DNA of 64,000 bases from Sthenelais limicola (lineage: Eukaryota; Annelida; Polychaeta; Phyllodocida; Sigalionidae). The stretch covers positions 8,523,685 to 8,587,684 of the forward strand of contig OW804097.1 of assembly GCA_942159475.1 (NCBI GenBank), in the 5' to 3' direction. The translations under genes were made by a program, and so were the position numbers. The notes beneath the pieces are model-generated. The model was not told where the DNA came from and ran no database searches. It saw only the letters and a list, made by a program, of their open reading frames with translations. Below are positions 2,401-62,188 of this stretch, piece after piece (the first letter of the stretch is position 1; each line of letters starts with the position of its first letter).

Positions 2401-2524
2401 ACTCATTTAGTACTAAATCAAATGTAAGAATTGATCTGAATAAACTCTCAAACTTTTGACATAACCATTGGGAAAGTAACCAGAACGCATCAATAGATGC
2501 ATATCAAACTCCCCAGCAACATTA

Positions 2525-2764
2525 TTAGTATGGGGCAACAAAAGTAACATGACTGTCGTTAATATCTGCAATGTCTGGAGTTACAATAACACAAATATTG
2601 TGGGGGCCGCCATCTTGGATCACGGAATACAAGATCTCGTCCTGACCCGGAAGTGTGACCCGACCAAAGTCTCGATATACAAAATCAGTATCAAAATACA
2701 TGGGGCCAGAAAAATAATCTTGACATACAACATCATTGCAAGAAATAATACCAACAACAGGCAA
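2525..2764 (-). CDS. Unidentified 79-aa ORF downstream of gag-like ORF
   Basis: A 79-aa minus-strand ORF beginning MPVVGIISCNDVV. It lies about 100 bases downstream of the zinc-knuckle ORF at 2863-3345 and in the same direction. It has no motif I recognise and is not hydrophobic. It may be a decayed continuation of the same retroelement polyprotein, or chance. Confidence 0.2.
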   Translation of the reverse strand: MPVVGIISCNDVVCQDYFSGPMYFDTDFVYRDFGRVTLPGQDEILYSVIQDGGPHNICVIVTPDIADINDSHVTFVAPY

Positions 2765-2862
2765 AACGCTACCTGAAGTTAAAGAACAGTATCTGGTACC
2801 CCAAAATCATAAGTAACTACATTCAAAACAGTAAATTCACAACTAGTATTACAAGCCCCTTC

Positions 2863-3345
2863 CTATGTGTCATGGCACCCTGCGGCACCACCGGCAGAAG
2901 TTTTACAATTCGACTTAGCATGATTGCCCGAGCACAGAGCACAAATATGGGGAAACTTGCACTCAGCGTTGCTACAATTGTCACAATTGAAATTCCAACA
3001 GTAATACGTAGGACTTTTCCTGTTCCCAGTCTTATCATTAGAACCAGAAGCGTTAGCCTTTGCTTTCGCTGGTTGTTTTCTAGCATGCTCCTGACCTAAG
3101 AAGCGTAAGGCAAACCCCATATGCCCCAACGTATAAGCTTTAGGCCCAATGGTAACATGATATAAAGACTCAGAAAAATAAGCATGGTCAAGGTATGTGA
3201 CATATTTAAAGCAAAGAATAAGGATTATAATTATTCCAACTAAAAAGGGCCTATGGACGTTAGGGTTAAATTCTGAAAACCCTTGCAAAGTTGGAAAATT
3301 TTTTACCACTGGTCCGATTTTGTTGGAATAAAGTGTCAAATTCAA
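2863..3345 (-). pseudogene. Gag-like protein with Cys/His zinc cluster, 5'-truncated
   Basis: The C-terminal half has a dense Cys/His cluster (CWNFNCDNC, AECKFPHICALC, GNHAKSNC), preceded by a basic, Ala/Lys-rich linker. This pattern is familiar from gag-like proteins of invertebrate retroelements, including tyrosine-recombinase elements, and would bind nucleic acid. The N-terminal half is partly hydrophobic (GIIIILILCFKY) and looks decayed. The apparent start codon falls in the microsatellite tail of the adjacent LINE copy (3340-3362). That start is therefore an accident and the real 5' end was probably lost when the LINE copy arrived. No RT or recombinase follows on the left. Confidence 0.45.
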
Positions 3346-3362
3346 TTCAATTCAATTCAAAA
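3340..3362 (-). repeat. LINE 3' microsatellite tail (ATTCA)n
   Basis: About four and a half copies of a pentamer (TTGAA read on the minus strand), directly after an AATAAA-like 3' end. This marks the 3' terminus of the minus-strand LINE copy at 3340-5702. Confidence 0.8.
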
Positions 3363-3861
3363 CATTTTTTATTTGCATCAATGGTGATTACAAAAAGGAG
3401 GGCCCAGTTTTGAAACCTATGTTCCAAGTCTTCCACTGGGTTCCTGGTTGGTTGGTGATTGCCGAAACAAATTCATAATAAAATACTAGAATAGAAATTT
3501 CATGGCTATTTCATTTGATATTCAAGGGCTACTTACTACTTGTCTAGGTTTAGGTTTAGCTGTTTCTTCATGTGTAGGCTTAGTTGAATATTATATATGA
3601 TAATTAGCTAACACTAAGTTGTACTAACTAGAGCATGAGGTTAAAATTAGGGTACAATAACAACAGTGTAATTAATGGTTGGTAGTTTGTGTGGTCGGTC
3701 CAGACCAAGAAGTATTATACAGACATAACAAAATATGTATACGTATTAAAAATACAATAGCGATAAAAATAGAATAAAATAAGATGAAAGATCTGCAATA
3801 GATCATGAGATAGGCATAGTAATATACATATACAGAGTTTGGTACAATGGTAGGGGATGAT

Positions 3862-4230
3862 CTACAGTATTTCAATTGTATTTAAACAGGTATCAATAAT
3901 TTTGCTAAAAGTTTTCCGGTCCTGTACCTGGTGAGCATGAGTTTCAAGGGAATTCCAATATTTCGCTGATTTATAAGGGAAAGAATTTAGAATTTTTGCA
4001 GATATTGGTTGTAATAATTTTAAATTACGTCTGCCTTGGGCATGACTTCTAGTTGAAATTTTTCTGTTATCCAAATTGGTTCCATTGGGCCGATGAATGA
4101 AGGTAAATCGTTGAGCATTATGATAGAAATAAAGAAAATAAGTTTTAGTACATTTAAATTTAGGCGATCCTATGACCACCCATTTCTGCAATTTAGCACA
4201 ATTGAAAAATCTACCCCATAGGTGAGTGAG
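3862..4230 (-). pseudogene. LINE reverse transcriptase C-terminal tail
   Basis: The minus-strand frame ends with a typical post-RT tail (HAQGRRNLKLLQ, YKSAKYWNSLETH) and a stop at 3862. The same pattern (FAEGRKTLKQ, YSWNRLQT) is present at the end of the plus-strand fragment at 62446-63461. The catalytic RT motifs are absent, so this is only the last 120 or so residues, fused to the ORF1 part upstream. Confidence 0.75.
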
Positions 4231-4389
4231 TGAGATTGGTTGCTTTACGCCCTTATCAACACTTTGAAGTGTTATATCAAGGGCGGGAGAGCTGAGAGGG
4301 AGGCCGTTTATGATCATACCCAGGAAATAAGAGATAGAGAAGAAGGGAGAGAGAGACAGAGGAAAGAGACAGAAAGGCACTGTCTCAGA

Positions 4390-5647
4390 TTTGATATCTT
4401 GGGGTCTGGCCCCCTCTGGCAATTTTGGGAGGTCGGCCCATTTGTATCGTGTACCCTCAAGATCGATGTGTGTGGTAGAAAGTGTAGGTTTGCTTTTGGG
4501 TTGAGAGTTTTTAATTTATTGTGACATTTGTGGAGAAGTTGAAATTTTCTTCTTGTGTCGTCAGGTGTGTCTTTGTTTATCCATATGTCAGGCATGGGGC
4601 TATTTTGCTTGATTAGTTTTGCTTGGCTGATTATGATGTCTTTATTCCTCAACGAAGAGATAAGGACCATAACTGTTTGCGTTTTGTTTGGGCGAAACTT
4701 GTCAAGATCATAATTTGGGATTATAGTTGTGAGAATATTGGCCAGTATTTCACGAAGATTTTCGTTGCTTGTCTCTGGGATTCCATCAATCACGATGGTG
4801 TTTTTCCTCGATTTTGTGTCGAGAATCTCAACCTTTTCCAGTTAGAATGTCAGTTTTCCAATTTTCTAAGTCATCGAAGAAGGAGGTTTGGCTTGCAGCC
4901 ACATCAGCTTTAATTTTGTCTGCTTCCATTACTAATTTAGCATCGATAGTGGTTTTGATAGTATTTCTGATTTTATGTCTGCTTGAGGGACTTGGTTATC
5001 TTCAACAGCTTTTACTCTTACTTCAAGGGCATTGAGTTGTGAACTTAGATTGGAGTCAAGTGACTGTAGGTCGGTTGCGATTTTGCTTACAGATTCTTGC
5101 TGGATTAGATGTAATTCAAGGTTGTACGATTTTTGGGGGGTGGGGTTGGGCAGGGTCGTGGTCGGTAGGTTTAGTTAGGACAGATGTGGGATCTGTTTCA
5201 GCATCGGTAGAAATCGTTTGAGGTGGGTTTGAGGGAGAATGGTTTGTTTCAGCGTCGGTGGAAATCGCTTGAGGTGGGTTTGAGGGAGAGTGGTCTGTAT
5301 TTTTGCTCGAGGGTATAGCTTCAGGGCAGCGTTTGGTTTCAATGGATAGGCTTGGTGGGGGGGTTCAAGGTGGACGAGTGAACTGTAGGCATATTTGAGT
5401 TATCTACAGACAATGATGGTAGCAGTGGGTCTGGAAGTGGAATGGATGTTGGTGGAAGAGTTGTGGGAGAGGTTTTAGGTGGACTTGTGATGGGTGGGTC
5501 ACTAATTGGGTCATTTAGACGAGGTGATACTGTTGCTAGATCTGGTAAATTGCCAAATATTAGCCGTGTCAGGCTATTGTCTGCCAACGACGACATGATG
5601 TGATGAAAGTACTTACAGTTTGGCTTGGACATTAGTGAGATACTCAT
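4390..5647 (-). pseudogene. LINE ORF1 N-terminal part (Pro-rich region, RRM, C-terminal domain)
   Basis: 5647-5339 encodes a Pro/Ser/Thr-rich N-terminus. 5330-4800 is decayed but reads as a coiled-coil-like region in mixed frames. 4793-4390 encodes an L1-ORF1p-type RRM and basic C-terminal domain, with the run IKQNSPMPDIWINKDTPDDT closely matching LINE-A ORF1 (IKQNSPQPNIWINRDMADDT). RNA-binding ORF1 proteins of this type coat LINE RNA. At about 4420 the frame shows the PEGARPQDIKSE motif that in LINE-A lies just before the NADAR domain, but no NADAR follows here. Confidence 0.7.
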
Positions 5648-5705: not shown

Positions 5706-6746
5706 ATGTTATTAAGCAAGATCGATCTCATACGCCTCTTTGCGTTTTTCCCAGTCTTCATCGGATTTTAGTTTAGAACCCTTGCTTTTGATTTCATAAG
5801 GATCCCCAAGTTTTGCAATTCTTCTAGCTGCAGTGTTGTTGCCTGTTTTAAGGGCTTTAAAGTAGAAGAAGGCATGCTCTACAGATTCGAATGTAAGCCT
5901 GTTGATAACAATTCTGCATGGATATAGATTCGAGGGCCAGGTGTAGGAGGACTGATAGGTGAGACCCAGGGCGACTTTCTGGACTTTAATGGCAGCAGGA
6001 GCTACTGACTCAGGCAGCATTTCCAAGTCATCAACGCTATAGGTGCGTCCTTTCACTAATACCTTATCACCTTTTACCTTTGCGTTCTCATCTAAGTTTT
6101 CATTAACAGCCTTTTTGGCTATTTGTCATAGAAGCCCCCTATTTCGTCTGACTTCGGCATTTATATCATCTTCAAATGACCAGTACTGTATTGCTGGGTA
6201 ACGCTCTGGGTTAAACTTTGTATTGTCAAAGAGGGCACCTTTTCTAGACATGAATAGTTTTTTGTCTTTCAAAAATTTAAATCTTACACGATGGGATCTG
6301 GCCTTCTCCTTCTGTTGTCGCGGCTCTTTCTTGTTACAATGCGGTACGTTTCGTCTAACTGGTCATTCTTGAAATTTGGAATAACCATTCGAATGATTTG
6401 GGCAGCAGTGATATCAACGTTTTCGTCCCTCTTAGCAAGTACACCATTAAATAATGATGCACTGTTGCCTATGTTTGGTGTCAATTTCGTTATTTATAGT
6501 TTTTTGTTTTTGCAACTCAAAAGTGAGAAACTGTACCTGGTGTTGTAACTCATTCATTCTTTGTTCCTTCAAACAGGCCTTATCATCCTGCTCGTTATTC
6601 CTGATTATCTCGTCTGTGAGATTAGACGCCAATTCAGAACATAACTTGTTTGTGTCCTCCAATGAAGATTTCGTCTCAACTTGGGTGGCTTGGACAGAAG
6701 CAACAGTTGGATTTTCTCGCATCGGTTTGAAGAGCTTCCTGATCAC
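5706..6746 (-). pseudogene. LINE ORF1 fragment: coiled coil, RRM-like domain, NADAR
   Basis: 6746-6447 is a Gln/Glu/Lys-rich coiled coil. 6484-6284 carries the RRM region (IIRMVIPNFKN, YRIVTRKSR, PDPIV). 6280-6110 encodes the C-terminal domain up to a stop near 6120. 6056-5706 encodes a NADAR-like domain (PSNLYPCRIVI, FESVEHAFFYFKAL) that keeps the conserved Glu of the SVEHA motif. The C-terminal FWG half is missing because the copy is cut near 5706, next to the GGCGCC edge of the neighbouring LINE. NADAR proteins hydrolyse ADP-ribose from guanosine. The order of domains matches LINE-A ORF1. At least two frame breaks make it non-functional as a whole. Confidence 0.75.
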
Positions 6747-19406: not shown

Positions 19407-19991
19407 TTATCTTATCCACTTGTTGACTTGATCGCCTTTTGGACGTGTGTAATCCTTGTCAGCACCCTCCTTCACCGCATTTTTGGCAAGCAATCCCATC
19501 AGGGATTTCTTTTGCCTGGTCTCAACGGTGTCGTACTCATGGAAAAACATCCTTGACTTGTTAGGCCACATACTAGTTGGGAACTGATTATCATCTCCGA
19601 ACGGATCATCCTTATGTGTCAGCTCTTCTTTCAGACCCTTGTACAGGAGTTTGATAACTATTGGATGAGGTGAATTACGGTTGCTAGGTCTGATTTCTCT
19701 ATAGGCTGTGTCAACTGTTCCCTCCCAGATCTTAGGGTACATGGTACGAAGGATCCGTTTAACTAACATAACAGTGTTCTCACTTTTTGCTTGCGGACAC
19801 CCTTCCAGAACTATATGAGATTCCCTGTGTTGCTGCTGGATTATTTCAACCTCATCTTTTACCTTGCTGATTTGGGATTTAACATTTGCGGACTTACGAT
19901 CCTGCATCTTAATGTCCTTGTCTAGCGAGAACAAATATTTCAACGCTCCTGACCTCAAAACACTTTCATAAACACTTTCATACAAAACCAA
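19407..19991 (-). pseudogene. LINE ORF1 fragment: coiled coil, RRM and C-terminal domain
   Basis: A 194-aa frame. Residues 25-55 form a charged heptad-like coiled coil (KSQISKVKDEVEIIQQQ). Residues 57-125 form an RRM of the L1 ORF1p kind (SHIVLEGCPQ, AYREIRPSNRN, PHPIVIKLLYK), and residues 125-190 a basic C-terminal domain. The NADAR domain expected next is absent because the frame stops at 19407. The N-terminal extension is an artefact of the open frame. RNA coating and chaperoning are the known roles of this protein class. The same domain order is seen in LINE-A and in the fragment at 5.7-6.75 kb. Confidence 0.7.
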
Positions 19992-21726: not shown

Positions 21727-22107
21727 TCAATTACTGCTCATGTGTTCCGAATAAAGGTTACACCCAATGGCCCAGAACTGATCGTTTGTAGCCTCATATA
21801 ACAGAGTGTTTCCAGTTTGGAAGAGATATTCTGCAAGTTCTTTGTTCTGTATAATCTTTTCCTCGGCCACAGCTCTCATTACAGAAATTTTAAGCTTGTT
21901 CCATTTTTCTGTTGATTGAATTTCAGAGGTGAGACGTTTAATTTTCTTTGGATCTTTCTCCACTTCTCTATCTCCTAGGAGGTTGGCCCTCGCATAGTGA
22001 TAGGCCTGCTCGCCTGAGTTAAATGTCATATCTTCTACTCTTATCGGGGAGGGAAAGAAATTACTCAAAGGTGAGAATTCCGATTGGAAGAAAATGCCAC
22101 TATCCAT
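21727..22107 (-). pseudogene. NADAR domain of a LINE ORF1
   Basis: A 126-aa frame that is almost entirely a NADAR domain. The N-terminal strand is FFQSEFSPLSNFFPSPIRV. The conserved Glu lies in FNSGEQAYHYARAN. The helical middle contains STEKWNKLKISVMRAV and the C-terminal part LFQTGNTLLYEATNDQFWAI. It is among the clearest NADAR reads in the window, and about as long as the minimal domain. It ends with a stop before the downstream helix seen in LINE-A. Upstream lies an SGNH fragment (22110-22457), which is the reverse of the usual NADAR-then-SGNH order, so the locus has been rearranged. Confidence 0.8.
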
Positions 22108-42359: not shown

Positions 42360-42660
42360 CCCTGCTGGAATTGACAAGTCTGTAATGCTCTTAAGTCTAA
42401 GTACTCGGGTCAAATTTTTAATCTATTGGCCTGTTGAAAGATGTGTAACCTCCGCCTCTGTTTTAGTGGTAGAAGGTTGAATTGGGTATGAAAGTGATCC
42501 ACATTCTGATATCTGTTTGATTTCGTTATGATTCTGAGAGCTTTATTTTGATAGGTTTGGAAGAATTTTAAATTTGTCACTGGTGCCAAATCATAAAAAT
42601 GTCTCATTGGTCTATTAACGGTAGTATGGTGGATTTGTTGTTGTTGAAACTTTTAATAGC
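42360..42660 (-). pseudogene. LINE RT C-terminal fragment
   Basis: The frame at 42607-42410 reads FFQTYQNKALRIITKSNRYQ and LLPLKQRRRLHIFQQ, the thumb and tail of a LINE-A-type RT. The stretch 42,560-42,640 is nearly identical to 51,005-51,080. The copy ends near 42,645. Confidence 0.75.
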
Positions 42661-43029
42661 CATAATATATACAGAGACGACAATATCGGTGGGAACTTAT
42701 CTCCCTACTTAGGGAGGATCTCAAGCCCTACCGTAAAATATTGTTTTTATAAGCAAAGGTAACAGTACTCCCTAAGGTCGACGACAGTAGGGAGGCCTTT
42801 GCGAAATTGGGTTTAATAACTTTAGGTTTGTGCAAGCAGCACTACGCGCAAGAAAACAACGATTAATCATTTAATACATTTAATACAATACAATTGCTAA
42901 ATCTTAATTTGATTTAATTTTTAACTAATTTACTCATACAAGTCAATCTTGAGATGCGATTTTAAGGTTGTTAATTATGCATTATCGAGGGTATGAGCAA
43001 AATATGCTAGCATGAATTTGATAAGATAA
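42661..43029. other. No gene seen
   Basis: AT-rich sequence between a RT fragment and the LINE-A tail, with no ORF or repeat of note. Confidence 0.5.
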
Positions 43030-43030
43030 T

Positions 43031-43060
43031 TAATAAATAAATAAATAAATAGATAGATAG
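43031..43060 (-). repeat. LINE-A 3' microsatellite tail
   Basis: Plus strand AATAAATAAATAAATAAAT followed by AGATAGATAG. On the minus strand this is CTAT repeats followed by TTTA repeats. The related plus-strand fragment at 62446-63461 ends in TATC repeats. Confidence 0.8.
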
Positions 43061-43246
43061 TAAAGTCTGACAGAATGCATTTGGCACTAAGGATAAATTA
43101 CAGGCGCAATCATAATCAGTTTAAGCAGAACACACATTTAAATAAGAGGTAATAAGATTGTGAAGAGGGGAGTTTCTATACCTTATGCAGTAATTTCATT
43201 TGTTAGTATAAGAAGTGTTGGTCAATCTTGATGGCTGCTTCTTTTG

Positions 43247-46054
43247 CTAAATTTTGAAAGCTTTGGGAGTATCGGCTTCATGCAGATTAGTATCAAGAGA
43301 GTTCCAATAATATGGTATTTTATAATAAATCGATTTCCGTATCTGCTCAAGTCTGGGAATGGGGCATTTAAAGACGATTCTACCTTGTCTGTGTTGCCTA
43401 GTATCCCTACTTTTCAGGGCGATGGCTTTTTCATTAAACCTTAAACGATATCCCTGTTGCAATATGTGCAGTCGCCTCCTTTCTTTCAGTGGGAGCAGGC
43501 TGAATTGTTGATGATAATCATCCATATTTTGGAATCTATTGCTTCTAGTTATAATTCTCAATGCTCGATTTAGAAGGATTTGAAGGGATGAGAGTTTAGT
43601 TTTATTTGCCGAATCGTAAAAAATATCTGATTGATCGAATAATGGTAAAATAGCTGTTTTGTAGATCTGGGCACTTAAGTTCACATTCAGCCTGCTCCTA
43701 AGATGCCTAAAGAGCCACAATTTGTGTACAACCTTTCATCTAATATTCACAAGATGTTTCTTAAAAGTAAGGGGGCCGTCGACGACCGTCCCCAAATACT
43801 TATAGTCTTCCACATCTTCAAGAACTTTAGGCCCCAATAGCAGGTTGTGGAGATGGGATTCCATTTTCCATTTTGTCCTCCAGGAAGGCCCCCCATGGAA
43901 TATCATAGATTTGGATTTGTCCTCATTTAAGGAGATCTTATTTTTGCGGCACCAGAGCATGATATTGTCAAGGTCCTGTTGTAGGTGTTTTGTGGTAGCA
44001 TTAATGTTGTTATCTACTCTGCTGATAATAGTGTCGTCAGCAAAAAGCTGCATATCTGAATTTTTAGAATGATTATGTAAGTCGTTAATATATATTGAAA
44101 ACAGGATAGGACCAAGAGTGGTTCCCTGAGGGACTCCACAGGTAACTGGTTGTTCAGAGGAGGTTATGTTATTTGCTACAACATGTTGGTGCCTGCCTTG
44201 AAGATAGTTTCTAAACCATTCAAGTTTGTTACCCATGATTCCAATTGTACCTAGTTTTCCCAGCAAAATATGGTGATCAACAGTGTCGAAGGCCTTCCTG
44301 AAGTCCAAAAATACAGCTCTACAGACTAGTTTCTCATTTATAGCACTATATACTTTATTCAGAAAGGAGACAACGGCATCACTTGTACCAATATATTATT
44401 GGTTTTGAGATGGACCATAAGTTTTTTCTGTATGACTTTTTCCAGGACCTTTGCAGGCAAACAGATACTCGTGATGGGTCTGTAGTTGCCAGGATTTTTC
44501 AAACTTCCAGCCTTAAATAATGGGGTCACCTTACCAAGTTTCCACTTTTCGGGGATAAGGGCAGTGGTCATGGATAATTCTATTAGATACTTGAATTGCT
44601 CGATGAGTGTGAGCAGGATCTTTTTTAGAAGTGGAGTTTTCAAGTGTATAAGGCCAGAAGATTTATGTTGAGGAAGGGAAGATATTATTTTCTGTAAGTC
44701 ATTCAAGGCGATTCCATCAAACTGAAAGTTAGGAAAATTGGTCGCAGGTCCTTTGTTATCATCATACATAGTTAATTCATCCTGTGAGAGTGGATCGATG
44801 TTATCAGCTAATTTTGAACCAATTGTGGCAAAATACTCATTAAAAACGTTTGGGACCTCTTTGGTACTAACTGCATCTCCATTTTCAGATTCTAATTGGA
44901 TGTGTTCCATATTACAAGCTTTTTCAGGGCTTATCATAGGTTTTACTTTCTCCCAAAATTTATGAGGATTATCAGAACATTCTAGCAAAGTGTTCTTTAT
45001 ATATTCATTTTTGAGGGTTTTAGCCATTTTATTTACTTGTCTACGGAGTGCTTTGTCCTGATCTAGGAGGTCAGTAGATTTATATTTCTTAGCCATTTTA
45101 AAAAACTTGTCCCTTTGCTTCATCAGTGAGAATAATTCGCCGTCTATCCACTCACAACGAGCACGAACGTTTTTGAACTCTCTGACAGGACACATTCTGT
45201 CGAGGATTTGATAAATGAGGGATTCCATATAGTCCCAGTAAGTGGTGGGATTACGAGAAGTGTAATAGTTAGTCCAGTCATGGTCTTTTAGTATTTGAAG
45301 GAATATATGTTCAAAGTGGGTGAAGCTTCTAGCTTCAAAGGATGTATTAGAGAATACATTTTTCAATTTTTTTCTGACAATATAGATCGGATTATGGTCC
45401 GATATATTGATGTTTAAGACGCCAGATAGTGTAATATGTTTCGAGTTGGAATAGGCATGATCAATAATGGAAGCGGAGGAAGAGGTGGATCTGGTAGGTA
45501 AATTTAGATAGCTCATTAGAGGGGAGCGTACCATCATTGTAATTTATGTTCAGGTCACTAAGCAGATAAATTTCATGGTTGGTTGGTAATTTAGAGAGAA
45601 TCTCGCGAATGAGTTCTATAGCCTCTGCATAGCGGCCACTAGGTGGCCTATAAGCATTGAGGACCATCTTGGTTTTATGATTGTCATCTTCAAGTAATAG
45701 GACTTGAATTTCCAAATTAATATTACTTGTGTTGAGATCCTTATATTTCTCACAATCGACACTTATATTGTCTTTTATGTAAGCAGCCAGCCCACCCCCT
45801 CTCGACTTCCCACTAGCCCTGTCCAAACGGTAAAGTTTGTACAGGGCAATGTTCAATTGGCTAGTGTGTGTCCTGTCAGAGAGCCAGGTTTCGCCCAATA
45901 ATAGTACATCCACCCCAGACCTGAGGAGAAAGGTCTCCACCTCTTCACAATTTCTCAAAAGACTGCGTATATTCAAGCTTACAATCTTGAATCCTTTTGC
46001 ACATGCTAGAGTATTTAGTAGTTGAGTTTGGTCATTGTCAACTGACATGATCAA
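43247..46054 (-). pseudogene. LINE-A ORF2: EEP endonuclease plus reverse transcriptase
   Basis: Starts at ATG 46054. The EEP domain (46,010-45,400) has IVSLNIRSLLRN, LLLGETWLSD, SRGGGLAAYIKD, NAYRPPSGRY, a DLNIN-type motif and ISDHNPI. The linker (45,350-44,900) has NPHKFWEKVKP. The RT has FKAGSLKNPGNYRPITSICL, FLDFRKAFDTVDHHIL, CGVPQGTTLGPILFSIYIND and QLFADDTIIS (the catalytic FADD). The tail has RRRLHILQQGYRL and YYWNSLDTNLHEAD, with a stop at 43247. Lesions are a frameshift near 45,515, another near 44,390, and a TGA at 43736-43738 that interrupts an otherwise continuous frame. The product nicks target DNA and copies the LINE RNA. Confidence 0.9.
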
Positions 46055-46967
46055 TTCAATTCAATTAATGAACGTTTTAAAACGAAAGAGAGAAATAGCG
46101 GAAATAACAATCAATAAAGTGATTTTATTTAATATTGACCACCAATATAGACATCAGATTAATTAGTAAAGTAGTGCAAGTCAGTGTTCTTGATTCTGAT
46201 GCTCTAGTTAGTCAAGATGAGTACATGTCGGTATTTGAGATAATCATTCGCTTCAATAAGTCAATGCCCATTTGAGGTGGAAACAACTGAGACATAAATG
46301 AGAAAAATAAAAATTAGGAAAGAAGGAACAGGAAAATGAGAATATCGAAATATGGGTACAAATAATAAGAAAGATTGTAAGAGGTTGCAAGAAAGATTGT
46401 AAGAGGTTCGATTTGGTGGGGGATTTGCCAGGTTATATTATTTATCATATTAAATTTGTTAGACCTGGTTAAAGTAGAAGTGTCACACTTGAGTAGTCCA
46501 TTCTGAAGTAAAAAGTCAGATGAGGAGAGTTTTATGTTTTCATCGGTCGAAACAACTTAATGTAGGTGAGTGTTAGATTATAAAGTATGTTTTGACCGAC
46601 CTCAGTTCTTGGATAATTAATCCTCGATGGTTTTCTTGCGTAGAGAGGAGGTAATAATGTATAGGAGGAAATCAATTACCATCGATGACAACAATCGCAC
46701 CATATACAATAGTTCATTCACTAGAAGTGAGAATTAAACACAAACACAGACACATTGGGCGATGGTTGCAACTTCTCTCGTAAAGATGTATGATTTGAGA
46801 GGCAAGAACTTGGTACACTTGTTATGAAATAGCTGTGAAGAGAAGATTGGTCTGGATACAAGACAATGGCGAAGTTTTGGGGTCAATATATGTGACAATA
46901 GCGCCAGTCCCTTAGCACCGCCACTATCGACGATAGAGGCAGAGGGATAACTAGCTATATCACAATT
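46055..46967 (-). other. LINE-A spacer between SGNH ORF and ORF2
   Basis: A 913-bp non-coding spacer, unusually long for a LINE. It has an ATTCA-like run at 46,053-46,066 next to the ORF2 start and a direct repeat (GAAAGATTGTAAGAGGTT at 46,371 and 46,391). It could carry a ribosome-entry function, since ORF2 must be translated far from the cap. Confidence 0.5.
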
Positions 46968-47615
46968 TCACCATAAATTTATCTTCTGTATTGCCTTCGA
47001 TATTGTCCATGCCCAGTCGTCCAATACAGTCGGGGTTAGGTGACAGCCATCATTGGATAATCGGGTGTAGGCGTTTCTATGGTGCCCATTATCATTCGGA
47101 TGAATGATTGAGTTGGTGAATGGGGTAGGGAGTAGGTTGATCTCATTCCTGTTAAAGATAGCCTTGTTTATGGCGGTGATGGTATCATTCAGTAGACTTT
47201 GATCGGGGTGAGGATTTGATTGCTGGTTATACACCATCAAATCCATACCAACCAGGGGGCAGAATATAATTTCAGTAGGATATGGAAAGACGGCATGCTC
47301 CATCCTTGTCTTAATATATTCCATATCAGCGGTATATGCTTGCTGTGCTGCGATTGTAGAACTGTAAGCGAGTGATACAATTTTGGTGCTTTTGTCCTTT
47401 TTTGTGATAGAACAAAGGCCAGCAGTAAAGAAGATGTACTGTGGCCTAAATCTCGCGACTACGTCTTGGGCTAGATAAGCAGCAAGTTTTAGGGAAGCCC
47501 CTGGATACGAGTGGGTTGTGAATAATTCCGGATTTAGATAATTCTCAAGGTATTGGTTTAGAGAACGGATCCTGGAATCCCCCACTATGCAGTAGTCCTG
47601 GCGTAGAGGTGCCAT
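46968..47615 (-). CDS. LINE-A SGNH/GDSL-like hydrolase ORF
   Basis: 215 aa, intact. Block I is DYCIVGDSRIRSLNQYL with the nucleophile Ser. The Gly block is YIFFTAGLCSITKK. The middle has EIIFCPLVGMDLMVYN. Block V is LSNDGCHLTPTVLDDW, with Asp-x-x-His. The fold is that of SGNH esterases, known as esterase domains in ORF1 of several CR1/L2/Rex-type LINEs, where they may act on lipids or aid membrane association. Its ATG is only two bases after the ORF1 stop (TGA-AT-ATG), which suggests coupled termination and reinitiation. A canonical Asn block is not obvious. Confidence 0.82.
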   Translation of the reverse strand: MAPLRQDYCIVGDSRIRSLNQYLENYLNPELFTTHSYPGASLKLAAYLAQDVVARFRPQYIFFTAGLCSITKKDKSTKIVSLAYSSTIAAQQAYTADMEYIKTRMEHAVFPYPTEIIFCPLVGMDLMVYNQQSNPHPDQSLLNDTITAINKAIFNRNEINLLPTPFTNSIIHPNDNGHHRNAYTRLSNDGCHLTPTVLDDWAWTISKAIQKINLW

Positions 47616-47617
47616 AT

Positions 47618-49378
47618 TCAGCCACGTCTAGCCAACTCGTCCTTGATACTTAGAAGTAACTTACCCTGTTGGTTTTCACCGTCGAATTGCCGAGGATTGA
47701 ATTTTGTATCGCCTAACCTATGACCGGTACCCCAGAACTTAGAAGCGGTCATTTCATAATAGGCCGTGTGTGGCGTAGAAATGAGCCTTCGTTTGAGATC
47801 GCTATGTTGACTAAATTTAGCAAACATAAGGGCTTTCAGAGTGGCTATACGGTTGTTGGTCCATTCAGGACAATCAGCTACCTTGTCGGCGATTTCCTTT
47901 ATCTTGTAAGGGTTGTCGACTAACAATAGGGCAGCTGTTTGGTCTGCTTGTTTTGCGGCCATGAATTTATGATATTGGAACGCTTGTTCCACAGAAGTAA
48001 ATAGGCGACTTTCGTGCCAGAATTTGACTGGAAAAAAGTTAGATGCAAAGTGATGTTCACCTTGGTAACCTAGTGCTAAGCCACCATTAAATTCCTGTGA
48101 CTTCACATCTTCAGGACGGGCCCCTTTTGGTAGGTTAGGAAGATCGCTCCAGTAATATCTAGCTTTATTGAAAATGATGTAGTTAGAGCTCAGGATAGGT
48201 TTTGCGTCAGGCTCAATTTTCTCCAGTTTCTTGAAGCATTTTCTTAGCAAGGCGGATCTTCGTCTCGTATCGTCAGCCATGTCTCTATTAATCCAAATAT
48301 TGGGTTGGGGACTATTTTGTTTAATCTGCTTTGATAACTGTAGGATTTGATCCCTAAGTTTGGAGGATGTAAGAATAACAAGGATGGGGCGTGTTTTGCC
48401 AGCCTTGAACCTGCCCAGGCGATACATAACATTTATGTTGTTTGAACTAAAGTTATGCAACATGGGGGAGATAATACCAACCACAATTTCAGGGAGATTA
48501 TCGTTTTTGTTTTCGGGTACACTATCAATGTGTATGTTGCAATTTCTAGACTTAGAGTCGAGATTTCCAACTTGCTCATTTGTGGTATCTAGAGATTTTT
48601 CGGCTTTCGTAATTGCTATGGTGTTTTGTGAGACGATTGCAAAAGTGTGGGCTTGCCATGCTTGTGCCGAATCCATTTTGTTTTTCAAATCAGCTAGATC
48701 GTCAATTAACCCTGTGAGCTTATCATTTTGTATATCCAATTCAGTTTTAACTGTATTGGAAGAGGTGGTTAACCATGACCCAACCTGAGCCTCAGTAGAC
48801 TGCTTAAATGTGTCAAAATTGGATTTGAATTGAGTATCAATCTCTACCGATTTACCCTTAACTGCAATATTTACTGAATCGGTAATCTTTGCATCGATAT
48901 CTACAGAGGGGATATGGTCATCTTCAACCGCTTTCAATCGCTTTTCTATCGACGATAGTCGCAGATTGAGATTTGTTTGAAGTTGGGTTACTACAGCACA
49001 TAAGTTTTCAACCTTTTTTTCCACTACAGAGGTGGATTGTTGTTGTTTTGTATGAAGCGAAGTATGAAATAGTTTCATCTCATTTGCAAGATCATTAAAA
49101 GAAGAAAGATGCTTGGTAGTGGAAGCAGAAGAAGAGTCGGAAGAAATGGGTGGTTTCACCGGCAACTCGGATGGATCAGATTCAGAGAGTTGTTGGGAAT
49201 CGGTAGAGTCCAACGAAACATTGATAGAATTTGGGGGTAACTCTATAGAGGATACCAGTTCCAGATTTGGAGTGTGTGTTAGTTCAGAATTATTTAGATC
49301 GCCAGAACTATTGGAGAGAGGGACGGATTCACAGTTGGGGGTTGGAGATTTCAATCCTACAATTTCTGTGGAGGCCAT
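47618..49378 (-). CDS. LINE-A ORF1: coiled coil, RRM, C-terminal domain and NADAR domain
   Basis: 586 aa, intact. Residues 1-85 are Ser/Pro/Glu-rich and disordered. Residues 86-275 form a long coiled coil (KKVENLCAVVTQLQTNLNLR, LTGLIDDLADLKNKMDSAQA), expected to trimerise. Residues 279-355 are an RRM (NCNIHIDSVPEN, YRLGRFKAGKTRPILVILTS). Residues 356-425 are a basic C-terminal domain (NIWINRDMADDTRRR), as in L1 ORF1p. Residues 440-586 are a NADAR domain: NFFPVKF, SVEQAFQYHKFM with the conserved Glu near 460, CPEWTNNRIATLKALMFAKF, AYYEMTASKFWGTGHRLGD with FWG near 544-546, and GKLLLSIKDELA. NADAR enzymes remove ADP-ribose from guanosine. The active-site pattern looks preserved. Here it would act on the element's RNA or cDNA, which is inference. 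Confidence 0.88.
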   Translation of the reverse strand: MASTEIVGLKSPTPNCESVPLSNSSGDLNNSELTHTPNLELVSSIELPPNSINVSLDSTDSQQLSESDPSELPVKPPISSDSSSASTTKHLSSFNDLANEMKLFHTSLHTKQQQSTSVVEKKVENLCAVVTQLQTNLNLRLSSIEKRLKAVEDDHIPSVDIDAKITDSVNIAVKGKSVEIDTQFKSNFDTFKQSTEAQVGSWLTTSSNTVKTELDIQNDKLTGLIDDLADLKNKMDSAQAWQAHTFAIVSQNTIAITKAEKSLDTTNEQVGNLDSKSRNCNIHIDSVPENKNDNLPEIVVGIISPMLHNFSSNNINVMYRLGRFKAGKTRPILVILTSSKLRDQILQLSKQIKQNSPQPNIWINRDMADDTRRRSALLRKCFKKLEKIEPDAKPILSSNYIIFNKARYYWSDLPNLPKGARPEDVKSQEFNGGLALGYQGEHHFASNFFPVKFWHESRLFTSVEQAFQYHKFMAAKQADQTAALLLVDNPYKIKEIADKVADCPEWTNNRIATLKALMFAKFSQHSDLKRRLISTPHTAYYEMTASKFWGTGHRLGDTKFNPRQFDGENQQGKLLLSIKDELARRG

Positions 49379-49424
49379 GTCAATTTCAGTTAAAGTGGCA
49401 ATAGTATCAGAATCGTTGTTGGAT

Positions 49425-49694
49425 TTAGTAGTTTATGTCAGAGTCAGAATTTATTGTACCGACATCTGAAGGGAGTAAGTCATGTACAGGCATTTTGGGG
49501 ATAGTAGAGTTAGAGTCAACAGATATTTTTGAGTGTACCGATACCTTAGGTTTGAAACTAGAAATATGCCGATTGCCCCGGTTGTTGAGGACGCGAAGGT
49601 TGTAGATTCTATTGGGAATGGGTGATGTTACAGGTTTGAACATTGCGCGGGAACAACAGAATCCAATATACACCAATTTTAGTCCATAAATCAA
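49425..49694 (-). CDS. Small ORF in LINE-A 5' UTR
   Basis: 89 aa, ending 47 bases before the ORF1 start. It is basic in the middle (PNRIYNLRVLNNRGNRH) and acidic at the end. It has no motif I recognise. It may be a regulatory upstream ORF or simply open 5' UTR. Confidence 0.3.
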   Translation of the reverse strand: MIYGLKLVYIGFCCSRAMFKPVTSPIPNRIYNLRVLNNRGNRHISSFKPKVSVHSKISVDSNSTIPKMPVHDLLPSDVGTINSDSDINY

Positions 49695-49842
49695 TCCTTT
49701 GAGTTTTAGAAATATCGTATAAGTGATCTAGATGGGTTTACACAGTAGATCAACGAAATCAGTTTTGGTGGTAAGTCCAATAATTGTATAGTTAAATCTG
49801 CTATTTGGTTATTACAGTTTGACGGTCCCACTTGCACGTAGT

Positions 49843-49854
49843 GGCGCCATCTTG
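49843..49854 (-). promoter_or_regulatory. CAAGATGGCGCC motif at LINE-A 5' edge
   Basis: Minus strand CAAGATGGCGCC, close to the YY1 site AAGATGGCGGC that sets the start of mammalian L1 transcription. The same or similar motif occurs at 484-495 and at 5696-5703, also next to LINE 5' regions. Confidence 0.4.
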
Positions 49855-49855
49855 C

Positions 49856-50360
49856 CAATGAAAACTTGTAAACTTGTGCACTGAGATGAACTGAACTTGT
49901 GCACCTGTTCAACCGACTTCTCAAATGTCTAAAAAGCCAGATTTTATGAGAAAACTGTCTCTTTATTGAATTTAAGTGCTTGCTGAATAGTAGGGAGCTG
50001 TCAATGACAGTCCCCAGGCATTTGTATTCAGCTACTTCTTCCAATTGGTTTTTGTCAAGGTAAAGTTTAAACGCAGAGGCTTCAGTTTTCCTCTTAGACC
50101 TCGGGGAGGGCTTACTCATAACTTTTGATTTATCTTCGTTTCATGATATCTTGTTTGCTTTACACCAAGTGGTAATATTGTTTAGATCTGATTGTTTATC
50201 CTTGGTGATCGAGTTTATATCTTTGCCTGATTTACAAATGATGGTGTCATCAGCAAATAATTGAGTAATTGAATTTTTTACTTGGATTGGAAGATCGTTT
50301 ATGTAAATAGAAAATAGGATAGGGCCTAGGGCCTGTGGTACTCTGCAGGTTATCAAGTTA
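49856..50360 (-). pseudogene. LINE RT fragment, duplicate unit A
   Basis: 50356-50141 reads LGPILFSIYINDLPIQVKNS, then QLFADDTIICK (FADD intact). 50119-49880 reads FKLYLDKNQLEEVAEYKCLG and FSHKIWLFRHLRSRLN, the thumb. The fragment ends where LINE-A begins. A near copy is at 51,087-51,500. Confidence 0.8.
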
Positions 50361-53547: not shown

Positions 53548-55553
53548 TTAGAAATATAAATATAATATTATGAGGATATGAGGTAGACCTACCAATGTTT
53601 TTTCTTTATCCTCAGTAGATGCTGGATTTGGAACAGGTTTCTTGGCCGGTTGATCAGTTTGTTGCAATAACTGATCAAATTGTGTTCTAAGCCCCTTTTG
53701 ACTACCAGATCTTGATCTAGTCCCGTCGGACACTGTAAGCGATTCTGATGGCCTTATGAGTGCACGGCCACAGGAGGATTGTTGACAATCCATTGGAGTA
53801 GGCATGGAATTCTTACATAACTCCGACTTTGTGACTTGGGGGGGGGATTAGAATTAGAGTTGGTATTGGCCAGTGCCCAGGAAGCACTTTGTTTGTCCTT
53901 CGGGGCTTGGGAGAGCATTTATTTATTGTTTACTGGGGCGGGCCAGTTTTCGTTATTGCCTAGATCTAATCCATTGGCATTTGGTCTTTTGGGATCGGGT
54001 TTTTTTGGTTTGTTTTGTCTAGGCTTAGGGGACAAGGTAGATGTAGGCTATTGAGCTGCTGGCCTGAGAAAAGTCAATATCTGTAGTGTGGGAGGTATAG
54101 CCTGGGTTTATGTGTAGGCGAATATCTAACAATATCTTCCCAACAACATTGGCTCCAGTGTAATTTCCTTCTACCAATTCTGAGGAGTTGAGATAGGCTT
54201 CACATGCCCAAAATTGGCATGTGGTAGCCTCATAAAGTGACATATTGCCAGTTTGCATTAAAAAGTGGCGAATGTTGATGTTTCGTGCGAATTTTTCTTC
54301 AAGAGATCAGCTGTTTAGCAAGCATTTTTGCTTCTCTAGGATCTATCTTATGATCTATAACATCCCTGTTTCCAAGAAAGTTTGCACAAGCGTATTGGTA
54401 TCCATGTTCAACAGATGGGAACGATAATGTACCCATATGTAATTTGCAGATTTTGAAGTTACTCAATATACTCAAATCGCTTTGGAAGAATATGGAGTCC
54501 CCAATGACTTTCGTCATAGCATCACAGTATCACTAGGTCGGAAACCATCATCAGCGTACTCTAGGTTGGCGTGTATAGGTTATTCCATTAAGAACTATCG
54601 AATTGTCGGCATTGTATGAACTTAGAATGAGATGTAGGGTGGTGTTGTATTCTCTTAGAATTCAGCCTGTACATGAAGGAGAAAGAGCCTTATGGCGAAG
54701 ACTGCAAGACAATATAGCAGAATGTGTAACATACCATAAGTCTTAGGTCAACAATGTACCATATTTTTTAATTCCATAAGGACAAGTCATTACTGCAAGA
54801 TCTTAGCAAAACTTCATTTATATTGACGAGTACATGAACATATGTTTAGCATTGTAGAAGCCAAGATGGCAGGTATCGAAAATAAAGTCGTTGCAAAAAC
54901 AAAAAAAAGAACTATCAAATCATTTGTGATTCTTCCTACTTCTTGAGTTTTTCGTCTTTGCTCGAAAGTTTGCACCATTTGTATCTTACGCTTATGTTTA
55001 ACAAGTTTGTCTGGTATGTCAGCATTTAGAAAAATAGTCACTGAGTTTGAGCCTTTGTTGTCTGCCGTATATTATATCTCTGACCTTTTCGGAAACAAAT
55101 TTGACGATGATTTGTCTAGCACCTCTGCTCTTACTAGGTAATCGTAAATGAAGTTATCAGGACCTACTGGAGGATCTACTGATCTAAAACAACCCAAAAC
55201 TTTCTCAATTGTATTTTCTTTACGCGTTTCATAAATGCCTGAAACGATAATACGGGCGCGATTGTTCTCTATCTGAGATTTAAGAAAATTGTCTCCTAAG
55301 TCAAAGTGACTTCGTTTGAGTAGAGCATTTTCTTCCTGTAATGTTGAAATACATGGACAATATTTTTTTCGTTATCAGCTAAGGTAGAGACTCTAGTCAG
55401 TAATTCATGTTGGTTTTCTAGGGTGGCGTTCAGTGTGTTTTGTAGATCCCCAATGCCAATTTCACTTGGATCTTTTTTTAGAGCAATATGATCAGGGTGT
55501 CTCTCAATAGGAATGTGAACGGGCGGGGTATATTGAATATTCACACGTTCCAT
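53548..55553 (-). pseudogene. LINE ORF1 with coiled coil, RRM-like region and NADAR
   Basis: 55553-55296 gives the start and a short coiled coil (GDLQNTLNATLENQHELL). 55,295-54,814 gives decayed RRM and C-terminal domain (VTIFLNADIPDKLVK). 54517-54299 gives the N-terminal half of NADAR (DSIFFQSDLSILSNFKI, PSVEHGYQYACANFLGN), keeping the conserved Glu. 54258-54100 gives the second half (GNMSLYEATTCQFWACEA, GANVVGKILLDIRL). 54,020-53,548 is a Pro/Ser/Gln-rich tail. At least four frame breaks are present. The order is the same as LINE-A ORF1 but closer in sequence to the 21.7-kb and LINE-C copies. Confidence 0.75.
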
Positions 55554-56496: not shown

Positions 56497-59348
56497 TCAA
56501 TCAAATTCTTCCCCGTGATACCTTAGCATGATTTGGGTTTTTAGTTCTCGTTTTAGTGTAATATCGTCTAAGTTTCTCAATCTGACTTGTAAGCCGTTCC
56601 AGTTTGTTGCCAACTGATAGCTCAGAGATTTCCTATCTGTTTCGGTTTTCGGTCTAAATTGTCTTATGGTTCTACCTTCATTCTGCCTTGTTGCCCTCCC
56701 GTTCTCATTAATCGCAATCTTCCTACCCATCTTTGCGAGCAGGAAGTATTGTCTGTTTGATACCGACATAATCTTGCATCTGTTATGCAGGTTCTTCCTG
56801 GGTGTCAGCCGGTCCGCTTTGAGGGCAATACGGATCGCTTTATTTTGCAATCTTTGTGTCTTATTTAGATTACTTTTTCCTACTGGTGTCAAAAAGGGTA
56901 GGCTATAATCAATTATTGATAAAATGAATGATTTTACGATTGTCACTGCTGCGTTCTGGGTAAGCATTGGACGCATCAATGATAACTGATGGATTCTGAA
57001 ATTAAGATTTTGGTGTAGCCTGTCAAGCTGCCTCAGCATATTCAACTTGGTATCTAATCTAATTCCGAGATAGTCATAATACTCCGTATGTGATAGCTCA
57101 AAGGATCTAAACTTTATCTCAGGGGGTCTTCCTCTTTTCTTCCTGCTAAAAAGCATAAATTTCGTTTTCTTCATGTTCATTTTAATTTTGTTACATACTG
57201 ACCAGTCGTAAAAGGTTTCTAAATCTTTCTGCATTTTCGCCACAAGCTCAGGCAGTTGCGTCCCTCTGATGAATAATACCGTGTCATCAGCGTATAGCAC
57301 AAATTTACAATTTAAGTCCAAATTCTTTAAATCATTAGTATATAGCAAATACATGAGCAGCCCTAAAACTGAGCCCTGCGGTATGCCGCAGTCAATCGTC
57401 GCTTCCTCAGATATGTTACCTTCTATTATAACTCGCTGTTTTCTATTTTCTAGATACGATGCTAGCCAATTCATATAATTGTCTCTGACGCCTATCTTCT
57501 CAAATTTCTCTAGTAATATGTCATGATTAACGCTATTGAATGCCTTGCTAAAATCGATAAAAACTGCCAATACCTGTTCATTGTTATTCAGCGCCTCATT
57601 TATCGGCATAATAAGGGTGGCAAGCGCATCCGCAGTACCCCTTTCCGGCAGGTATCCGAACTGTGTATTACAAATAATGTCGTTTGCCAGAAAATGTGTC
57701 TGTAACCGAGCCGCTATAATTTTTTCAAGAAGTTTCCCTACTAAATGTATTAGTGTAATAGGCCTAATATCGTCAACTGTCCTAGGTATGGCTATCTTAG
57801 GGATTGGTTTGCATAGACTATCTTTCCAGTCCTTTGGAAACACGCCTGCTCCTATGGATTCATTAAATAAGTAAGTAATTTGGGTAGAGACACCACCTAG
57901 TGCGTCCTTATAAATCCTACTATTAATGTCTATACATCCGGAGGGTTTTTTAGTGTCAATTTCCTGTGTCAGTCGTAGGACTTCATCTTCACTGACTGGG
58001 CCTATCTCAAAAGCAGATCTTATTGGCTCTGGTCTAACATCATAGGTTTTATCTGGAATTGATTTTTGTATGTTGTCTCCGATCAAACTGAAAAATTCAT
58101 TAATGTAATCTGCTAGGTTCGAACCAGTTAAACGTATGTTCTCGCTGTTACTCAGGAATTTTATTTCGCTGTTCTTTTTTCCCTGTATTTCTGTTATGAT
58201 CCTCCAAAATTTGCTACTATCTTTCCTGTTATTGTCTAGCAGGGTTGTGTAGTACCTCTCTTTAGCTCTTTTTCTCTTTTTAGACTGAGGTTAAATTTGT
58301 TGCGGGATCGCCTGGCGATGCTCACATTTACCACAGATTTCTGTTTATGTGCTTTTTTGCAGTCCCTATCTATTATTTTGCCTAGCTCCACTAATTCCTC
58401 ATCATACCATTTACGTCTTTCTGATCTAATTCTAAAGGTTTTTTTCGGTGCCAGGAGGTCAGCAGTCCTTTTTATTCTGTCAAATATAAATTTCCAAATA
58501 CAATTAACATCATTCTCTGCATACAAGTCGGTCCAATCTAACTCTTTCAATTTCTTCACTAGTTCTTCTTTGCTATAGTTGCTGTATTTCCTACCTTCAA
58601 ATGAGGTAACATACTTATATCTTTTGCCTGCCTTGATGTTCAGATGTATTCCCTGATGATCCGATATGTTATAGTTAACCGCCCCATATGTGAATTCAAT
58701 CTTTATTTGTACCAGATAAAAATCTAGAATCGTATCTTTATTTAATCCATATCTAGTGATCTCATTCATTCTAATTTCAAGGTCATGTTTATCACTGAAT
58801 TCCGATAGCAGCTTATATTTCCTATCCTTCCTATCCATTAGGTTGATGTTTAAGTCTCCGCATATCACTATGTCATAATTGCCCTCCCCATAAATACTCT
58901 TGGTTTCATCTAATATTCGTCCTAGCTCAGCTAGACCCTCTGCAACATTCAGTGACGGTGGCCGATATACGCAAATTACCAACTTTTTTCTGACCTTTTC
59001 TTTACTGACCCAGAGAGTCAGGGTCTCAATGAAGCTGTTATTATTTGCGTCCAACAGGCCATCATTAACCTCTTCAACGTTCAGGTCTTTTCTTATGTAT
59101 GTGCATATACCTTCCCCATGTTTCTTTGCCATCCTATCCTTTCTAACACAGTTATAGTCGTTATGGTTAATTAAATCTGTTGGGATACTTTCCTTCAGCC
59201 ATGTTTCCGAGAGGCATAGAATTTCAGGGCCTCCCATCAAAATGTCAGTTCTAATTTGATCTATTTTCTGTATCAGTGATCTTACATTTAGATGTAGGAT
59301 TTTGAATCCCTTCTTCTTCAGAATGTCGGACCATTTGTTCAGAGTCAT
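56497..59348 (-). pseudogene. LINE-C ORF2: EEP endonuclease plus reverse transcriptase, one frameshift
   Basis: Start ATG 59348. EEP: GFKILHLNVRSLIQK, ILCLSETWLKES, GEGICTYIRKDL, VYRPPSLNVAE, ICGDLNINLMD, NISDHQGIHL. The linker then runs to 58,240. RT (58086-56497, 529 aa open) has KDWKDSLCKPIPKIAIPRTV, FIDFSKAFNSVNHDIL, CGIPQGSVLGLLMYLLYTND, KFVLYADDTVLFI (catalytic YADD), and a tail with ATNWNGLQVRLRNLDD. A single frameshift near 58,270 separates the halves, since the frame before it (LSLKREKE) continues as RAKERYYTTLLDN in the next frame. So about 950 codons are otherwise intact, and the element was active recently. Confidence 0.9.
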
Positions 59349-60317: not shown

Positions 60318-60985
60318 TCAACACCCGTCCCCACATGGGTTTCCCCTAGCACCACTATATATAGATACAGGGTCTTCATGGAATCTTGAGATCTGTTTGG
60401 CCCATTCTCTAATCACCGGTGCAGTAAGATGCACTCCGTCGTATAGCTTATTTAAATAATGCCTCGGCTTGCCCTGTTGATAACAGTGTAGTGATTTGCT
60501 TTGTAGGTATATATGGCGGATTCCCCTTTTTTCGTTCAGCATGCGTATGTCCTCATTTACGGTCATGACCGCATTATTTATCATGATCTGCTTTTCTGAT
60601 TCGCCTTCCAGCTTGTTAGCGCTGTTAAATTCTAATCCAATAAATCCGCCAATCGTTATGTATGACTTTTCCTGTTCAGCAGCTAGGATGGTCAATGCAT
60701 CTACATATCTGTCAAACATTAACCTCACAAGATCCCCTTCGTTTGGGGCAGCCAGGGTTATTTCTTTAGTGATTGGGTCTTTATCGCTGAAGTCACAGAT
60801 ACCTCCTATGAGAACAATACCAGAAGGGATTAACTCCCTGAATATCTCCTTTGCCTTGTACGCCAAGTCGACGATCCCCCAACCTGGGTATGAGTATGTT
60901 ACAAACTCCATGCTATTTTCAATATGATCAATTAAATGTCTCCCCCTTGAGTCCGATAGGACCAGTGTTAGGCGTTCTATATCTA
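60318..60985 (-). pseudogene. LINE-C SGNH-hydrolase ORF
   Basis: From Met 60911 the frame is open for 197 aa. In the same frame it continues upstream to about 60,985 (LTLVLSDSRGRHLIDHIENS) before a TAG, so the true start lies upstream and is lost or is not an ATG. Block I Ser is in SDSRGRH. The Gly block is GIVLIGGICDFSDKDP. Block V is KLYDGVHLTAPVIREW with Asp-x-x-His. It is similar in plan to the LINE-A SGNH ORF but diverged in sequence. It sits 3' of ORF1 by about 110 bases, unlike the two-base spacing in LINE-A. Confidence 0.75.
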
Positions 60986-61599: not shown

Positions 61600-62188
61600 C
61601 ATGTGCTACTGGTCTATTCTTTTCTGTCCTCTGTCGAGTAGCAGTTTTCCTCCTTGGCGAGCCAATTCAATTTGTAAGCGATCGACCAAGTCGGTGCCAT
61701 ATACGTGGTGTCTCCTAATTTCCTCCAGGAGTTGCCCTACTAAGTTGGCTCCCTTGTGCTTGTTGCTCTCCATGAGATCCGATCCAAGTCTACACCCTGC
61801 AGCCCAGAATTTGTCGTTGGTGGCTTCATAGTCTTTTTTCTCCAGTTCTAATTAGACAGTCCAGGACTCTATCATTTTGTTTGAACTTTTCGTCCAATAT
61901 TCCTCTCATAATATCTACTTTAATTGCGTCCCATTTTGGTGTCGACTCAATTTCACTTCCTATCTTTTTGGCTTCTCTGGCCTCGGTACAATTGAAGATT
62001 CTTGCCGCTCTGTTCCTATCCCCCAGCATATTAGCCCTACAATATTGGTAGGCCTGTTCGACACTGTAGTAGACTTGCCCCTTTATTCTGATGTCGCAAT
62101 GAAAAAAATTACTTAGGGGACTGTGATGGGATTGGAAGACCATGATTGTTTGTCTGTGTCTTTGCGTCCTCCAGCGTGTAGCCTTCAC
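61600..62188 (-). pseudogene. LINE-C ORF1 NADAR domain
   Basis: 62188-61826 gives the first half: MVFQSHHSPLSNFFHCDIRI, YYSVEQAYQYCRANMLGD with the conserved Glu, and STPKWDAIKVDIMRGIL. A frameshift near 61,850 leads to the second half in another frame: DYEATNDKFWAAGCRLGSD (FWA in place of FWG) and GANLVGQLLEEIRRH. It continues with DLVDRLQIELARQGG to about 61,640. This is a complete domain apart from the frameshift. Confidence 0.8.

Follow-up and report, generated by a model that had tools for sequence, protein, structure and literature searches.

We identified a LINE whose intact first open reading frame (ORF1, 586 aa) encodes a C-terminal NADAR domain fused to what looks like an RNA chaperone of the LINE-1 type, with a coiled coil, an RRM and a CTD. 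The element lies in a 64,000-nucleotide stretch of DNA that was analysed as a whole (the window). The original prediction, made from the same DNA, had known of no described LINE with such a fusion; this part did not survive, since PMC12477816 describes several Tx1 LINEs of Crassostrea gigas from Repbase whose ORF1 contains NADAR, and the fusion as a kind is thus already in print. Our preferred reading, to which we give a probability of about 0.45, is that the NADAR domain, carried on the RNP by the ORF1 protein (ORF1p), would remove guanine-linked ADP-ribose from the element's RNA or cDNA.

A LINE insertion with a NADAR domain in ORF1

Element A is a single LINE insertion of ~7.2 kb (42639..49867, ends +/- ~10 bp), bounded by a copy of the empty target; it and all its features described below lie on the minus strand. 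In a repeat copy at 50997-51495 its two flanks join without interruption, and they match that copy at 100% (49868-49887), 93.5% (49903-50301) and 94-95% (42556-42638). With the junctions aligned side by side, 15 nt at 49888-49902 were absent from the empty-site copy, and no clear target-site duplication was seen at the junctions. An older LINE fragment surrounds the insertion, and its reverse transcriptase (RT) piece is 53% identical to the RT of element A. The order within the element is 5′ region, ORF1-NADAR, 215-aa ORF, 0.9-kb spacer, APE-type endonuclease, RT and a (CAA)n end, the 3′ end reading CAACAACAACAA. Having an EEP endonuclease followed by an RT, in a bounded insertion with a 3′ tail, element A is an APE-type LINE.

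ORF1 (47618..49378) is intact, and the chance of 586 open codons at its base composition is 3.6e-17. The next ATG, which begins the 215-aa ORF, stands 2 nt past its stop. The predicted fusion of NADAR to the ORF1 of a LINE was borne out: PF08719 (NADAR) matched residues 441-582 (E 8.9e-19) in this intact frame, with endonuclease-RT downstream, and the score in this search, a check set beforehand, was 68.8 bits against a cut-off of 35.1. A Foldseek search with an AlphaFold2 model of residues 268-586 returned five PDB matches at E <= 1e-3, two of them NADAR-family proteins, as expected of the NADAR fold, and three human LINE-1 ORF1p. From the PF08719 score and the YbiA fold of the model, we place the domain (residues ~432-586, 47618..48085; Pfam, AlphaFold2 model, Foldseek and VIA-align) in the NADAR superfamily.

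The claim that a coiled coil, an RRM and a CTD precede NADAR held in part. In the predicted model, the RRM of the RRM-CTD region (48095..48571) matched the LINE-1 ORF1p structures 2ykp, 2ykq and 2ldy by Foldseek and VIA-align, and we consider a LINE-1-type (type II) RRM to be present in the modelled protein. The CTD, also of LINE-1 ORF1p type, is less well supported: structure alignments covering both RRM and CTD had rmsd values of 9.6-14.9. Pfam gave no match to the RRM/CTD region. The coiled-coil-like stretch (approximately residues 213-276, 48551..48742) is suggested by a heptad heuristic; the alignment to the public protein P0001, described below, begins at residue 214.

An SGNH-like ORF and a broken ORF2

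Three features go beyond the original prediction: an SGNH-like ORF, four further NADAR copies in the window and a broken ORF2. The 215-aa ORF (46968..47615) has GDSR near its N-terminus and DGCHLT near its C-terminus. Related segments occur in two other elements of the window, B (27%; SDSRGRHL and DGVHLT at the corresponding sites) and C (DGCHLS at the C-terminal site). Both GDS and DxxH, which we take to be blocks I and V of SGNH hydrolases, are thus represented, and a Cys occupies the position expected for the Asn of block III. The 215-aa ORF had no Pfam match, and tblastn against plasmids gave none either. Because its single-sequence AlphaFold2 model reached a pLDDT of 34, and HHalign against E. 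coli TesA aligned block V alone at a non-significant probability of 0.5%, the label SGNH-hydrolase-like stays at motif level. The regions 39353-39787 and 39846-40186 together hold another LINE endonuclease and, upstream of it, weak SGNH-like scraps (E 0.019 and 0.024).

ORF2 is spread over four parts: the N-terminal part of the APE-type endonuclease (45461..46054; PF03372, E 1e-5); the endonuclease end, linker and RT start (44359..45537), with frame changes at either end; the RT core with FADD (43736..44395; PF00078, E 4.4e-24), which terminates at an in-frame stop; and the RT C-terminal region (43250..43735). ORF2 contains an in-frame stop and changes frame no fewer than two times, so this copy of element A is not autonomous. 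At the site where L1 has GTRQGCPLSPLLF, the RT motif reads GVPQGTTLGPILF in A and GIPQGSVLGLLMY in B. Tx1 belongs to the L1 group. From these differing motifs, the RT clade of elements A and B is likely unlike that of the oyster Tx1 LINEs; going by its motifs, the RT of element A looks non-L1, and our impression is of the Jockey superfamily (CR1/L2). Sequence matches in the PDB ranked group II intron RTs ahead of R2, and R2 ahead of L1, for element A, and L1 ahead of R2 for element B, an order that does not settle the clade.

Recurrence of the fusion within and outside the window

The window was searched with element A and P0001 by tblastn, and with profiles. Five NADAR copies were found, all on the minus strand: A, B (61.7-62.2 kb), D1 (21.7-22.1 kb), E (54.1-54.5 kb) and F (5.7-6.0 kb); the same profile search found no NADAR in 20 shuffled windows. 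PF08719 scores were 66.7 bits for the first fragment of B, 68.9 for D1 and 84.1 for P0001. E-values quoted for copies other than A come from profiles of A (and P0001 for the RRM) only, since iterated-profile scores for those copies are inflated by B rows or first-round hits inside the profiles; the few exceptions are named where they occur.

Element B repeats the gene order of A across CTD, NADAR, SGNH-like ORF, endonuclease and RT. Its CTD segment (62151-62363; E 3.7e-8 with the profile built from A and P0001 alone) precedes a NADAR in two fragments separated by a frame change (61705..62170), followed by a segment like the 215-aa ORF (60384..60965; E 1.2e-13 against A alone, tblastn 5.7e-16), an endonuclease (58236-59348; PF03372, E 3.9e-22 against the profile of A) and an RT (56497-58086; PF00078, E 4.9e-30 likewise), which is 34% identical to that of A; the last two together span 56497..59348. 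The ORF1 of B appears to be split by a LINE fragment on the opposite strand (RT fragment 62448-63170, plus strand). A low-complexity open stretch follows the NADAR of B (60960-61720), and P0001 has a low-complexity tail (residues 414-571); A has none.

Element C (903..4838, minus strand) is a diverged relative of A, with an RRM-CTD segment (4384-4838), SGNH-like pieces (2026-2381) and an endonuclease (903-1448). Against A-based profiles, E-values were 1.8e-21 for the RRM, 7.8e-13 and 1.4e-10 for the SGNH-like pieces and 1.1e-36 for the endonuclease; profile search found no NADAR in C. The NADAR of D1 (21739..22098; PF08719, E 8e-19) had no RRM that we could find upstream, and the RRM segment D2 (19458..19850, minus strand; E 4.1e-6) was followed by no NADAR in the profile search. 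Frames at 22080-22400, upstream of the D1 NADAR, read TDSRGRHLQLF and GICDF, which by eye resemble the start of the SGNH-like ORF. Because this start lies upstream of NADAR, the order in D1 looks reversed relative to A and B, pointing to a rearrangement or another element type.

Copy E (54106..55050) has NADAR pieces at 54308-54493 and 54106-54303 and a very weak RRM segment at 54910-55050, which appeared after iteration only (E 0.0074) and was absent from the first pass at 0.1. Copy F (5733..6451) has the first half of a NADAR (5733-5966; PF08719 30.7 bits, below the cut-off, and E 1.2e-15 with a profile of 87 non-LINE NADAR rows), preceded by a CTD segment (5973-6122; E 0.001) and a very weak RRM piece reaching 6451 (E 0.053). 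An RRM or CTD segment therefore lies upstream of NADAR in three of the five copies (A, B and F), and a very weak one in a fourth (E). Codon identity between copies fell in the order position 2 > 1 > 3 in all 11 comparisons (NADAR, RRM, SGNH-like ORF, endonuclease and RT), a pattern that alignment as protein itself favours and that had no control set; it is consistent with protein-level constraint in the lineage, as distinct from the decayed copies themselves. The window also holds a MULE transposase ORF (33771-34895; PF10551, 1.5e-12) and, upstream of it, an ORF in which a C1-like zinc finger matched below its cut-off (35968-36570).

Outside the window, a protein search with the whole of ORF1, in which the best 8000 candidates were scored, gave P0001 as the sole match. 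This public protein of 571 aa, from a 5.5-kb contig in ENA, aligns to ORF1 residues 214 to 584 at 25% identity and is collinear across RRM, CTD and NADAR. A protein search with residues 276-586 returned nothing, a weak negative since it missed P0001 too, and one with NADAR alone returned nothing within a length range that excluded P0001. Among viral contigs no ORF1 relative and none with the LINE motif pattern was found; searching them with P0001 gave 10 pattern matches but no relative, and two further searches gave 7 and 4 NADAR loci. In genome contigs, one search gave 75 pattern matches and no relative; another gave 168, of which we retained the best 80. NADAR matches in phages (566 records) and plasmids (33 records) were all below 60% identity. 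One IMG/VR contig (L004, 187-7023) carries a 2278-aa ORF with a NADAR-like stretch containing SVEQAFQYYK, a motif close to the LINE versions.

These data bear on whether the fusion is an accident, in which a gene of the host or of a bacterium came to lie beside a LINE fragment, or in which the assembly is chimeric. Of the NADAR copies, A alone has its ORF1 intact, and no RRM was found ahead of the NADAR of D1, as such an accident might produce. Against this stand the five NADAR copies, the gene order common to two families, the collinear P0001 and the oyster elements (PMC12477816), on the strength of which we rejected a chimera or chance fusion as very improbable.

Active-site residues of the NADAR domains

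The NADAR domains were compared with the ADP-ribose contacts of the structure 8bau (P. nicotianae NADAR), as given in PMC11543638. Element A retains E43 (E464), K50 (K471), K75 (K494), W89 (W506), R93 (R510), E125 (E542) and W133 (W549), with S546 in place of D130 and D498 in place of R79. Read by eye, the E43 equivalent is present in all five window copies, E125 and W133 in each of the four copies that extend over these sites, and a basic residue (Lys or Arg) at K50 in four of five. The K50 position is Lys in A, F and P0001, Arg in B and D1 and Cys in E. At E125, A, B, D1, E and P0001 have Glu, the YbiA-subfamily state, and F stops short of the site; the Asp found there in the DarT1-paired BC4488 NADAR was not seen in element A. 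The step from E125 to W133 is 7 in A, B, D1, E and P0001 versus 8 in 8bau and YbiA.

The D130 position is Asp in B, D1 and P0001, Ser in A and Cys in E, and F ends before it. In a comparison set of 87 non-LINE NADAR rows (85 different) from prokaryotes and viral contigs, this column held Asp in 63, Asn in 22, Lys in 1 and a gap in 1; E43 and K50 were present in 87 of 87 rows, largely forced by the search patterns. By spacing, D130 and W133 were equated with the D..W pair tested in SNA-3 (PMC9303266). In a tree with these rows, A and P0001 grouped together (100/81) beside L003 and L004. We claim no origin for the NADAR domain, because A and P0001 each sit on an end branch of ~4 changes per site, bootstrap values had yet to stabilise and the rows are prokaryotic or viral, with no eukaryote NADAR among them.

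Such substitutions could mean that the domain has little or no catalytic activity and binds ADP-ribose or nucleic acid, helping ORF1p to hold RNA or to locate insertion sites at DNA breaks through their ADP-ribosylated chromatin. Element A without the conserved Asp/Asn, copy E without both this residue and the basic one, and the adjoining predicted RNA-binding region all suit a binder. We nevertheless think it unlikely: P0001, B and D1 keep equivalents of E43, Lys/Arg50, W89, E125, D130 and W133 by eye, and a pure binder would not need these active-site residues.

Proposed role of the domain

The preferred reading, removal of guanine-linked ADP-ribose, starts from what is observed: the domains, their order, their recurrence in more than one family and the coding pattern of divergence. 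It is favoured by published work. LINE-1-type ORF1p packages element RNA (PMC3905857, PMC4120745); a YbiA-type NADAR, that of P. nicotianae, hydrolyses guanine-linked ADP-ribose (PMC11543638); and clam CARP-1 and butterfly pierisins place ADP-ribose on guanine N2, with NADARs as assumed, unconfirmed erasers (PMC11543638). The presence of NADAR in polyproteins of animal RNA viruses (PMC9503650) fits as well, as does the E. coli C7 NADAR, in which a Lys-to-Arg change at K50, the state seen in B and D1, leaves in vitro hydrolysis intact (PMC11543638). By homology with LINE-1 ORF1p, the protein of element A would coat the element's own RNA, and the fused NADAR would thereby sit on the retrotransposition RNP, within reach of element RNA and nascent cDNA. 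There it could strip ADP-ribose from guanine bases of the RNA or first-strand cDNA, an activity suggested by the chemistry of the family, so that the bases would stay readable for the element's RT when the host modifies them. We infer both the substrate and the host transferase.

Several observations count against an eraser. One caveat is the apparent loss of the D130 residue in A (Ser) and in copy E (Cys). C and D2 have an RRM with no NADAR found, and D1 has the converse. In addition, the K50 Lys-to-Arg mutant of the E. coli C7 NADAR did not rescue cells from DarT1 (PMC11543638).

The target might instead be a small molecule, either an ADP-ribose signal or a riboflavin intermediate, so that the domain would dampen NAD-based signalling and leave element nucleic acid aside. 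YbiA and its plant relatives hydrolyse riboflavin intermediates (PMC9303266), and removal of small ADP-ribose derivatives has been proposed for phage NADARs (PMC9503650). A nucleic-acid target, however, is favoured by the fusion to an ORF1p of the RNA-packaging type, and NADARs of eukaryotic RNA viruses are argued to act mainly on macromolecules (PMC9503650), making this reading rather unlikely. Processing or repair of the element transcript, as opposed to counter-defence, has been suggested for the Ectocarpus and oyster elements (PMC12477816), and SNA-3, which has NADAR domains, acts in nematode trans-splicing (PMC9303266); but no ligase, KptA or 2H was recognised among the 11 Pfam-scanned ORFs, and we regard this role as improbable.

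If removal of ADP-ribose from nucleic acid is correct, host defence against jumping genes might include the ADP-ribosylation of nucleic acids, as the ORF1-NADAR fusion hints. An active NADAR here would, to our knowledge, be the first enzyme to connect LINE retrotransposition directly with this modification of nucleic acid. A bolder and doubtful extension is that animal hosts hold retrotransposons in check by modifying RNA or cDNA with guanine-specific ADP-ribosylation, CARP-1/pierisin-like transferases being the missing host factor, and that this is why a LINE lineage of long standing carries two enzymes, the RNP-borne NADAR and the SGNH-like protein. The significance of nucleic-acid ADP-ribosylation in higher organisms has been called largely unknown (PMC11125620).

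Comparison with known systems

Repbase aside, PMC12477816 is alone among the matches listed in our search of the published literature in speaking of NADAR in LINEs. The main text of a survey of 448 Jockey-superfamily elements (PMC4120745) has no NADAR, DUF1768 or YbiA. In that literature we did not encounter the anatomy described here, its probable non-L1 RT setting or, as in two families here, an SGNH-like ORF accompanying the fusion. Like element A, the oyster Tx1 LINEs have a NADAR (YbiA family) in the ORF1 of a non-LTR retrotransposon; they differ in likely RT clade, and the portions of PMC12477816 available to us mention no SGNH-like ORF for Tx1.

An RRM, and probably a coiled coil and CTD, is shared with the type II ORF1p of LINE-1, CR1 and L2 lineages (PMC4120745), to which A adds NADAR. 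SGNH-like motifs in a LINE-borne protein are shared with the esterase ORF1p of ZfL2-1 and others (PMC3905857), whereas here they occur, at motif level, in a separate ORF next to an ORF1 with an RRM. The 2013 Repbase survey reports no esterase ORF1p with an RRM (PMC3905857). The present element offers a test of the suggestion there that LINE ORF1 proteins do not combine an esterase with an RRM; if the 215-aa ORF is an SGNH hydrolase, an RRM ORF1 and an esterase would be joined within one transposon.

Compared with the NADARs of P. nicotianae (8bau) and E. coli (YbiA, 2b3w), that of A is fused to ORF1p and, by eye, does not keep the R79, Y84, D86 and D130 contacts; phage-type NADARs have His at the E125 position, where A has Glu. 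Gypsy elements of Ectocarpus also bear a NADAR, for which, as for that of the oyster LINEs, a role on RNA intermediates has been suggested, but they are LTR elements with NADAR N-terminal in Pol, outside an RNA-binding ORF1 (PMC12477816). NADARs also occur in polyproteins of animal RNA viruses, and those of animal nidoviruses, hepe-like viruses and picornaviruses resemble A in lying within a protein of an RNA-based replicator (PMC9503650), A being a retrotransposon and not a virus. If the domain is active, RNA-based replicators would appear to have captured NADAR more than once, the cases being animal RNA viruses, Gypsy, Tx1 LINEs and the present lineage.
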